A stretch of 64,000 nt of DNA. Origin: Ptychodera flava (lineage: Eukaryota; Hemichordata; Enteropneusta; Ptychoderidae). Below, piece after piece: positions 53,901 through 59,900 of this stretch. The position numbers and the translations under genes were made by a program. Each line of letters starts with the position of its first letter. Positions within the stretch are counted from its first letter, which is position 1. The notes below the pieces were generated by a model. It was not told the origin of the DNA and did no database searches. It saw only the letters and a list, made by a program, of their open reading frames with translations. Location: contig NC_091934.1 in assembly GCF_041260155.1 (NCBI RefSeq), positions 46,813,342 through 46,877,341 on the forward strand, given 5' to 3'.

Positions 53901-56900
53901 ATCATACTTTGAATATATCACATCGGATCATCCCTAAGAACATGTCAACCAAGCTATCCATGAGTAGTTTTTTGAGAATGAAATTTTCTGACCAAAATGG
54001 CAACATTGCCCCAAAAATACAAAATTACAGATTTCATCAGAATTCAATATATATTACTTAGCTCATCTGTAGAAACCTGTATACCAAATTTCAAAGCTAT
54101 CAGAACAGTACTTTTTGAGAAACACACTTTTTGACCAAAAATGGCAAAATTGCCCAAAATTACAAAATTACTGATTTCATCATAATTTCAATAAATATCA
54201 TTAAGGTGATCTGTAGGAACCTGTATACCAAATTGCAAAGCTATCAGATGAGTATTTTGGAAATACACATTTTTTGACCAAAAATGGAAAAAATTGCCCC
54301 AAAAATACAAATTGCAGATTTCATCATAATTTCAATAAATATCATTAAGTTCATCTGTAGGAACCTGTATACCAAATTTCAAAGCTATCAGATGAGTAGT
54401 TTTGGAAATACACATTTTTTGACCAAAAATGGCAAAAATTGCCCCAAAAATACAAAATTACAGATTTCATCAGAAATTCAATATATATTACTAAGTTTAT
54501 CTATAGAAACCTGTATACCAAATTTCAAAACTATCAGACCAGTACTTTTTGAGAAACACATTTTTTGACCAAAAATGGCAAAAATTGTCTTAAAATGCAG
54601 ATTTGCATATTTCTGCACAATTTGAACAAATCTGAAATAGATTATCCCTAGGGACATATGCACCAAATATCAAAGCTATCTGACTTGTAGTTTTGAAGAA
54701 GAGATTTTTAAAGATTTTTTTACCAAAAATGACAAAAATTGCTTAAAAATACAAATATGCAAATTTCACCACGATTTGAACAAATCTGACTGTAGTCACC
54801 CTAAGTAAACTGCATATTGAATTTATTACCATCGCGGTAATTGTTGGTACACTGAAGCCCCAATATATTTAGGGAAACCGCTGGAGATGTTGATATATAC
54901 TCAAGTAATTAGCAATCAGTGTTGTTGAGACATGAAGGCGGCTGTGTCGGTGTCTGCGGGAAGCCAGTCAGTGTCTGGAAACCGGGATATTCCATTTTAC
55001 ACAATGGGGGTGTACAGACTATCAATTATTAAAATAAATAAAGTTGTATATTTTCAAAACTTTAATGAGTTACTCATGTACTAAAGAGGATGTGTTTCAC
55101 TTTGTTATTCCCGGTTAAATGTTATGATAAAGTTCTTTCGTAAAACTGGCCTAGAAATTGATTAAATGTATTCTTTCCACCTACTTCCCGAGCGAAAATG
55201 GTATCACCACAAGTGAATAACCGACATATTAGCAGCGCGCAATCCAAAACCAGAGTTTCAAAATGTCAGCCAACCAAAGAATTCCCGAGAACGTGCGAAC
55301 CTCGGTAGTTCGACATTGGCTAAATGGTATGTCTATTAGATCGGTGGCAAAAGAAACGGATCTTCCTGCATCAACAGCGGCGAACATTATCAACAGATTC
55401 CGGCAAACAGGTCTCACCATTCAAGGCCGGTCAAGTGGACGTCCCCATGAAAAATCTAGACCTGAAGTCGTTGAGTACATCGAGTACCTAAAGTCAAGAA
55501 AACCGTCGATGACAGCGACTGAAATTCGAGCTGACCTATTACACAGTGGCATCTGTGATCTGAACACGTTACCGGCACACAGGACAATTTATGATATTTT
55601 TCGTCGCGATCTTAATTTTACATACAAGAAAGTGTCTCAGGTACCGAAAGAACAGCTCACCGAACGAAACATGCAACGCATTATGCAGTATATCGACATG
55701 GTGTCAATGATGAATCCGCTTACTGTGCACTTCTTCGACGAAGCGGAGTAAAACGGACAACTGGTAACCGAAGTTATGGTCACAGTCGGGTGGGAGAGAG
55801 GGCGTTCGAAGTTCAAAGGTATACGTCTGATGTGAATTTAACCTTGAACTTGTTGCACAGTCCTTTGGGAGTATCTCATTTTAACATTATACACGGGCCT
55901 TCAAACGGAATGGAAATGCTACATTTCTTCGATGAAGCACTGCAAGTTATCCGGGAAGATGGCAATCCAGCAATCAGTCCCGGCGATGTTGTGATTATGG
56001 ATAACGCTGGATTCCACCACGGTGGAATAGCAGAACCAGAACTCAGAGAAATGCTCAGACGTAGAAATGTTCGTTGCTCTTCCAGCCACCATACTGCCCG
56101 GAGTTCAACTCATGTGAACTGTGTTTCCGACACATAAAGCATGACTTGCAGATGAACGATATTTTGGCTGTGAACCATACTGAGTTAGCTTTGATCAATG
56201 CAGTGGGCAATATAACTCCTGCTTTTTCCCGTGAATTTTTTAGACACTGTGGCTTTTCGATGTGATTTATGAACTTTAAAAAATAACCAAATGACACAAT
56301 CGCAAATTTTTCAAATGCAATGAATATAACTCATTGAACAAATCTGCGAAATTTACAAACCTATTCTGTAACGTGACGGTTTTCATGGCACTTCCATCCC
56401 CAGCTGTCGTGAATTTTTATTAGACCCGTCGGTTTTGAAATGTAATTTACAGTATGAGAATGTTCCAATAAAAACGGCGATGTTTATACATTCATTGTTA
56501 TTGTACTCAGTGTCTGAAAAAGGGTATTGAAGGATGATTGTATATGCACTGAGAATAAATACGACAGACAATTTGTGAACAATAAAATTTATCTTTAATG
56601 AAAACGTTGATGTAAACGGCGAAGTCAACTCCAATGATACTCAGATGAATAAACTAGTAATAAATCAGTAGAAAAAACTTGATTGTCAGTAAAAATGAGA
56701 GTTTGGTCACGTTGTGGTATGACCGAAAAAAAAAACTAGGTTTTGATTTCGCCAACCCTTGAATGTTGGTACGACAAACTAAGCTTCAATCTTTCAAGTT
56801 GTCAGTATATATTACTTCAACCCTGCGAAATCAAAACCAAATAACCTACAAATCAACAACATAACAAATAAACCTATTGGGTATATAAACTGCATTGTAA

Positions 56901-59900
56901 TTCGTTATTCGCTATCAAGGTCCTACAATCATCTTGACAATTTTCATTTAAAAGCATTTTCAAAATGAAATTTCGTATTCTACAGGCTCTACTAGGAACG
57001 CTTAAACCTTCCAGTCGGCAGGAAAACTCAAATATCACAAAAAGGAATAAACAAAAAACAACAGCAAGAAAGTGAATTTTCGTGGGAAGCTAACACAATT
57101 CAAACAAACGTCTTACTGGTATCATGCAAACAGGGCGTCGATCCTCAAAATTCAGTGACGGTTTGGCGGTTCGCCTGCATGAGTCGAAAGCTTGTGCTAT
57201 GTAGACTATGGAAAACTACGAACAAAACAAGTCTGAATCTAGGCATTTTGTAGGCTGTTATTATTTCACGAATGAACTTAGGACTATGTCACACAACTTT
57301 GTTCAGTTCTCCGACAACCGCTTAGCAGCTTCAAGGAGTTTTCCCACGTTGTCTTCGATGATTTCCATCGACTGCGACACAGGTATCTGGTTGTTATTCT
57401 CCGCCAGAACGCTGTTGGTACTTCTGGAACCGGGACTACGGTATCGGCGTTGTTACCATAGAATCTCGGTGTACTTGGTGCTGTACTTGACTCCGTAGCA
57501 GCAACGGTACATGTAGGTTGTGCATATTGCATGTAGCGGGAGTTGGCGTCACCATAGTTGGGCGATACAGCTGGGAAGTATCTGGGTTGTCCTTGTTCAA
57601 GTTGACGAAGCTGTTGTGGCGCAAATGGTGCTGGACGGGTGCGATCACCAAAATTATCAGTGAACTGTACCACCGGCCCTACAGGGTGAAGGTTGTGCGG
57701 CAGATATGCGGGCGAAGAGCTGTAATAATCATTCCAGTTGGCGTTGTCATAAGGGGAAGTCCGCGACCGTAAAGGTGGGCCCACGTTTCTCTGAATATGT
57801 CACGCCTTTGTCTACGCATGTATTTATCGTAAGCCTCTGCTTCAATATTGGTGTATTCCGAACCAGAACTATCCGACGAACTTCTTTCCCTTTTATTCTT
57901 TCGACGTTTCTTTTCGCTCTGTTCTGTGTCGCAACGCCGTCCTCGTGTTTTTCTAGATTCTGGTGAACTAGTACATTGACCACTCGAGCGAACAGGAGAT
58001 GCTAAAGGCAAACAAAGTGTAAACATTTAGTTTGAAGGGATTCGTTTAGTTGTGAGTTTGATGCATTTTGACGGAAACATCACGAACTGGACATGTATGC
58101 ATACCATAACGCACAAAGAACTTCAACGTCAATTTCTAAAATACTTACATTTCAAAAGCTCTTGGAGGTAGTCAGCGGAACACTTGCTACTTGACGGAAC
58201 TTGTTTCACTGAAGAATAAACACTTTTCCCGACTTCCTGCAGTTGTTTGGAAAACTCTCTGCGATCGACATGCGAGTCGTCGTTCTGAGGTAGTTTGCTG
58301 ATGTTGTTGTCATATGCTACCCGGAGAATGCCTATGTCATGTTGAAGTTCAACTTTCCCCTTTGTTGTTCGGGCCTGGTATTTTTCCGGGAAAGCTCGCA
58401 TCAAACGCGGTGTTATTTCCGTTGTGAATGCCGAGATCGATTTGCTCTGAAAATCTTCTAACACTTTCAACTCTGTTTCCGTCTGTGTTATCTGTTTTGC
58501 TTTCTTTGATTCTTTCTCCTTTAATTTCTTTACTTGGGCAAAGTGATCTTGAGTATGTTTGTCTTTTCTCCCGCAGTAGACGAACCCCTTGCAAGCTTCG
58601 CCCAACAAGCAACCTTCACTGTTTTTGTTACCAGTGGCGCGGTGACCGCGGCGGTGGCAGATTGCGCATGTACTCCGTGTATTTGACCCCACTGGCGATG
58701 CCTCTCTTACCGGTCTCTCCAATTCACTGCGCTGATGCTCAAGCGCTAACTTTTCATCTTTTAAAAGACAAAGTTTCTTATTTAAGCTTTCAGCTTTGGT
58801 CTCCTTCCAGTTTTTTTCGGTTTTGAACTTGTCCGTAACAGCACTGTAAGTGAGCTGTCGCCGGGGCGGTACATTACATACATCGATGTTCTGGTTCTGC
58901 TCCGGGTACGGGTCGTTGTCTCGACTTTTGACTGGCGATGGAAGGCACTCTTTCGTTTCGGTGCGTTTTTTGCAACCATTGGAGAATAATCATCAACGAC
59001 CTCTAACTTGATGCGCTTGTATTCGGCATTGGGCACTGTCTCGGAACATCGATACAGGTCGTTGATATCAAGTTCACTGTTTGACAGCGTAATGCTATCC
59101 CCTTCCTCGTTTTTATACTGAATTTGGAAATCAAAAGTTTCCAAGCTTGCAATGTTTCGCTTGATAAAATGAACGAGTTCACAGTATGTTCCCATTTATC
59201 GCCATATATATGACGAATTTTGCCACCACAGTATTTCACTTGAAATTGAAACATGGCTTACACATGCATGGAATCTTCATGCTTTGTGAATTGAAGGATG
59301 TTCAAGTTCAGCGCGGGAGCACGTTGATTACGCGCGTTTTCTGATTGTTGATACCACTTTCAAAAAGGGGGGTATCGCAATGGACTAAAGATTTTGCATC
59401 CAAGTTGTCTTATAATATTAGCTGTACACCGTATTTACATTAAAATATGCATTAAAGAGAAGTATTAAATGAAGACAAGAACTAAGGAACAGAAATGTGA
59501 TGAAATACAGTCATTTTATTTATTCACTGCTCACATTTCCCCACAATCCCCATCATAAAAATTGAATATTCCGGTTTCTGGATGGCGGTAACTCTATATC
59601 AGTTTTATTGCCGAGACCGACACAGCCGCCTTCATGTCTCAACAACACTGATTGCTAATTACTTGAGTATATATCAACATCTCCAGCGGTTTCCCTAAAT
59701 ATATTGGGGCTTCAGTGTACCAACAATTACCGCGTTGTTGATAAATCAATCGGACTTGTGGTTTCAGAGAAGATTTTTTGACCAAAAATGGGAGAAAATG
59801 CCCCCAAAAATACAAATATGCAAATATCACCAAAATTTGAATAAACTTAAGTGAGGTCACCCCAAGTGAACTGCATATAAAATTTCAAAGCAATTGGACT

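Follow-up and report, generated by a model that had tools for sequence, protein, structure and literature searches.

A candidate two-gene IS630-like transposon with a PB1-like second protein in the hemichordate Ptychodera flava

Most Tc1/mariner elements are described as 1.3-2.4 kb in length with one gene (PMC7731502). A 4916-bp unit on contig NC_091934.1 of Ptychodera flava encloses a transposase gene and a second gene on the opposite strand, which raises the question of whether an animal element of this superfamily moves with two genes and what the second protein would contribute. We analyzed the unit within a 64,000-nucleotide stretch of the contig (the window, to which all positions refer). 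The reading that we favor, at somewhat better than an even chance, is that of a recent copy of an IS630-like animal element that has two genes, one of them for an oligomerizing accessory protein, in a hemichordate host.

The unit spans positions 54826-59741 and is bounded by inverted repeats. Counted inward from the TA, the left (54826-54951, plus strand) and right (59616-59741, minus strand) terminal inverted repeats are 126 bp long and equal at 123 of 126 positions; all three mismatches fall in the outer seven bases, outside an exact core of 119 bp (54833-54951 and 59616-59734). The inverted-repeat search returned arms of 137 nt at 96%, and the 129-bp repeats of the original prediction were about right in length, just as its single repeat-bounded unit enclosing both genes was borne out. 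Farther inward, a shuffle test and alignment identified a 21-bp subterminal inverted match (54978-54998, plus strand, and 59558-59578, minus strand) that scored higher than every one of 100 shuffles. Sleeping Beauty-type direct repeats within the end repeat were rejected, as 23 of 200 shuffles were equally good.

The element is surrounded by a tandem array of approximately 144-bp units, and related units resume beyond its far end. When the flanks are joined (TTTAAATC), they align across the junction, one base short, with a related, uninterrupted stretch at 42020-42185 (TTTCAAATC). Judged from the sequence, the unit is an insertion because the joined flanks align through the junction in this way. 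A TA lies on both sides of the unit (54824-54825 on the left and 59742-59743 on the right), and the related, uninterrupted stretch is without TA at the junction point. A TA target duplication at these positions is plausible, and only consistent with the empty-site comparison because the uninterrupted relative differs from the joined flanks. Since the end repeats are identical over 119 bp, we infer that the insertion was recent.

The first gene (55263-56265, plus strand) encodes a DDE transposase with a Pax-like DNA-binding half, detected by Pfam PAX and DDE_3 matches spread over frames. At least two breaks interrupt the reading frame, one near 55748 and another within about 56071-56080, and the window pieces scored 25.9 and 24.1 bits with DDE_3, under its cut-off of 28.6 bits (Pfam). 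Relatives of the transposase are about 334 amino acids long; P0006 (111.8 bits) and P0009 (117.3 bits) passed the 100-bit cut-off of the IS630 profile NF033545, and the partial relative P0005 scored 68.4 bits, under that cut-off. The DDE triad lies within a predicted RNase H-like fold. The second Asp is separated from the Glu by 38 residues in 29 of the 30 alignment rows containing both (32 rows in total), and the predicted fold of a transposase relative was nearest to Mos1. Membership in IS630/Tc1/mariner is supported because relatives pass the IS630 cut-off and have the Pax-like half, the 38-residue spacing and the Mos1-like predicted fold, and the IS630/Tc1-type transposase of the original prediction was confirmed on these grounds. 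The DNA-binding half, in the window (55263-55751) and in the relatives, is strongly Pax-like. Two P. flava relatives, P0004 and P0043, are named "paired box protein" by NCBI, which is likely a misannotation; Pax genes have been proposed to descend from such transposases.

Other features were detected elsewhere in the window. A short Tc1/Tc3-like element at 16516-17652, with 32-bp perfect inverted repeats and a short transposase open reading frame (16950-17375) containing a Tc3-type HTH, provides a one-gene contrast inside the same window. A transposase gene on the minus strand (19956-22451), split over overlapping frames and matching Pfam DDE_Tnp_1_7 with 147.8 bits in its longest piece, is piggyBac-like. 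The window also contains a minus-strand hit for the small RNA family snoU85 (15265-15574; 63.5 bits vs. a cut-off of 41), a long simple repeat (8449-9359) that translates as poly-His, poly-Asp or poly-Ser depending on the frame and a possible host transporter exon on the minus strand (63179-63991) with a weak TPT match (17.2 bits, under the cut-off of 30).

The second gene lies on the minus strand from 59254 to 57303, convergent with the transposase gene, and an A+T-rich stretch (56266-57302; G+C 0.344) with an AATAAA on the plus strand from 56467 separates the two. It was predicted to be spliced, and one GT-AG intron of 147 nt (58002-58148) was indeed found, the same join being spanned by the P. 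flava protein P0001. Exon 1 (58149-59254) encodes the PB1 domain, a helix, a Cys/His cluster (58543-58668) and a long helical region. Exon 2 (57303-58001) encodes a Lys/Arg/Ser-rich portion and then a Tyr/Pro/Gln-rich tail, which together account for the predicted low-complexity tail, followed by a C-terminal helical stretch recognized by structure prediction on the relative P0002. The Lys/Arg-rich stretch within exon 2 is present in both the window and P0002 and could have a role in nuclear entry or nucleic-acid binding; a condensate-type role, raised in the original prediction, would likewise be inferred from sequence.

The PB1-like domain was upheld by the predicted fold and not by the Pfam profile. 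PB1 (PF00564) scored 22.9 bits in the window piece and 23.2 bits in P0002, both under the gathering score of 23.6. The predicted N-terminus of P0002 contains strands and helices in PB1 order, PB1 domains were the nearest solved structures, and the PB1 beta-grasp fold is present in the predicted fold of relatives. The P0002 model, built on four sequences, is weak overall (mean pLDDT of 54.5), and its usable portion is limited to residues 1-90 and some helices. A PDB search with the second-protein profile returned one match, which was disregarded (E 0.58). PB1 head-to-tail chains rely on a basic Lys and an acidic OPCA motif. By eye, the corresponding region of the window reads VKY with YKNEEGDSITLSNSELD, and that of P0002 reads VKF with a less acidic YTNEANEKITLGNSDMD. 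The predicted Cys/His cluster was corroborated by eight Cys/His positions kept in all four second-gene relatives and a ninth kept in three of the four; its profile matches among window pieces and relatives were all below cut-off (e.g., HNH at E 0.11), and it was poorly modeled (pLDDT under 50 over residues 198-241 of P0002). No Myb/SANT family was among the Pfam matches of the second-protein pieces and relatives. The product is probably a self-associating, metal-binding protein.

Relatives of the second protein were sought among approximately 5.8 billion proteins, with candidates limited to those with shared short words and similar length. One search gave three matches at E ≤ 0.001, and a second gave three at E ≤ 0.01, P0003 being absent from the latter. 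The second protein is thus rare in these searches, and the distinct relatives number four: P0001, P0002 and P0003, all from P. flava, and P0124, with 31% identity to the second protein. The main second-gene piece matched P0002 at 142/264, P0003 at 98/165 and P0124 at 70/178 aligned residues, and the PB1 piece matched P0002, an unbroken protein of 622 amino acids, at 32/67.

Each gene has an approximately 99% identical protein copy in P. flava. Of the aligned residues, 236 of 238 are shared between the transposase pieces and P0004, 168 of 170 between those pieces and P0005, and 271 of 274 between P0001 and the main piece of exon 1 of the second gene. The near-equal divergence of both genes would fit one unit and is not proof of it. 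None of these three proteins is the window's own assembled gene because each continues through at least one of the window's frame breaks. P0001, which could represent a different allele of the window locus, is itself not intact, since it stops prematurely within exon 2 in a different frame. The three proteins were found on records of three different lengths, which therefore give no sign of linkage. In the window copy, both genes are interrupted, a feature that the original prediction did not mention; the second gene has at least four frame breaks, two per exon. One of these sits in a homopolymer of six, and the remaining breaks of both genes appear to lie within or next to stretches of two or three identical bases, which are frequent by chance. 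The breaks may reflect decay of a copy mobilized by transposase from elsewhere or assembly error. A published P. flava assembly was made from PacBio reads and corrected with Pilon (PMC11175523).

The transposase search returned 198 protein matches, Saccoglossus and corals among them. No second-gene relative named from Saccoglossus or corals was found among the proteins with shared words and similar length. Because transposase matches are many and second-gene matches few, most transposase relatives may be without the second gene. Among the protein records and viral contigs covered, a further copy containing both genes was not seen. Prokaryote genome contigs contained at least 504 relatives among 593 stretches, the best 80 of which had 23-42% identity and titles that were all bacterial or MAG. 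Among viral contigs, the transposase query gave 49 pattern matches and no relative, the second-protein query gave 44 and 33 pattern matches and no relative, and the 24-base repeat core gave no match.

The original prediction regarded a two-gene member as a new architecture, which was overstated. As described in the cited sources, ciliate TBE elements have three open reading frames, one for a zinc-finger protein (PMC7325037), Tec elements have three, one of them in the complement (PMC4724952), and 13 Paramecium elements have multiple open reading frames (PMC5405496). The multi-gene architecture is not wholly new because these ciliate members of the superfamily are, by those descriptions, multi-gene. 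The present element resembles them in carrying an extra gene, some of theirs also being on the opposite strand and TBE having its zinc-finger protein. However, TBE and Tec are described as DD34E elements of ciliates with three open reading frames, whereas the present element has two recognized genes with hemichordate proteins nearest; many Paramecium elements are reported with a 32-residue spacing rather than 38; and PB1, found in the present second gene, is not mentioned for TBE, Tec or Paramecium elements in the portions of these sources consulted. The element shares a DDE transposase, about 334 amino acids long in relatives, a paired-type DNA-binding half, long inverted repeats and TA at both ends with animal IS630/Tc1/mariner elements including Intruder (DD38E), which also has the 38-residue spacing of the present relatives (PMC7731502). 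In contrast, Intruder is described as 1.5-1.7 kb with a single gene, and it is reported closest to DD34E/Tc1 whereas the present relatives pass the IS630 cut-off, a comparison made by description (PMC7731502). In a limited search of the open-access literature, no two-gene animal IS630/Tc1/mariner element was found.

PIF/Harbinger elements, which pair a transposase with a partner, serve as a working analogy. Both proteins are reported as required for transposition of the rice and zebrafish elements, and the zebrafish partner binds subterminal DNA, each protein requiring the other for nuclear entry (PMC9710019). That partner is described as having a Myb-like domain and belongs with another transposase superfamily, whereas the present second protein is without a Myb match.

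We hold it reasonably probable that both genes form a two-gene unit and would move together. Mos1 and Sleeping Beauty transposases act on their end repeats. Here, the Pax-like half of the transposase would bind the long end repeats, and the DDE half would cut and paste the element into TA. From its domain content, the accessory protein would self-associate via PB1, and its Cys/His cluster and basic tail would hold nucleic acid or the transposase. By analogy with the Myb-like partner of PIF/Harbinger, it might help gather, import or regulate the complex. The accessory mechanism as a whole, with its oligomerization, nucleic-acid binding and transposase partnership, is a tentative proposal.

PB1 is mainly a host signaling domain, and the main alternative is transduplication, in which a host PB1 gene was captured with its intron and is carried along as a passenger that plays no part in transposition. 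PDB matches to the PB1 region were mostly signaling-type, the intron suggests an origin at the DNA rather than the RNA level, and the unbroken P0002 could be a host source. Capture of PB1 has also been proposed for the plant MUSTANG-B (MUGB) genes, which resemble the present element in joining PB1 to a transposon-derived protein; MUGB is described as a MULE transposase that has been domesticated and itself contains PB1, whereas PB1 here is in a separate gene (PMC3435246, PMC8616336). However, a conserved host gene with this composition did not appear in other named animals among the proteins searched, three of the four relatives being from P. flava, and the P. flava relatives have diverged, as element genes do, until about 54-59% of the main piece is identical. 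We regard a captured passenger as unlikely.

It is also quite unlikely that the unit is real and the second protein acts in regulation or in defense against host silencing, not in transposition itself. Fast divergence, the low-complexity basic tail and the lack of a tie to the transposase in the data would suit such a protein, but there is no tie to silencing either. Insertion of a different mobile element, carrying the second gene, into a one-gene transposon would explain a unit that is long for the superfamily, and an inverted pair surrounds the second gene (56583-56616 and 59434-59467). This pair, the best found, has 34-nt arms that match at 76% and lie in A+T-rich DNA, and its score was reached in only 4 of 100 shuffles. 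Direct repeats did no better than chance (17 of 100 shuffles), and neither a nested element nor LTRs bracketing the second gene were accepted on repeats that are not clearly above chance. Pfam revealed no second recombinase gene among the scanned pieces, and we consider a nested element very improbable.

Returning to the two-gene element, it is possible, though short of probable, that an animal IS630-like lineage has acquired, and since retained, a PB1 scaffold protein bearing a new Cys/His module and that its transposition would proceed via a self-assembling nucleoprotein partner alongside the Pax-like transposase. Tc1/mariner-type elements serve as gene-transfer tools, partly because most of them contain the transposase alone. 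A superfamily member with a dedicated oligomerizing partner would, if true, represent another way of controlling transposition, and the Pax-like half of its transposase offers a lead on the proposed transposase origin of Pax genes.
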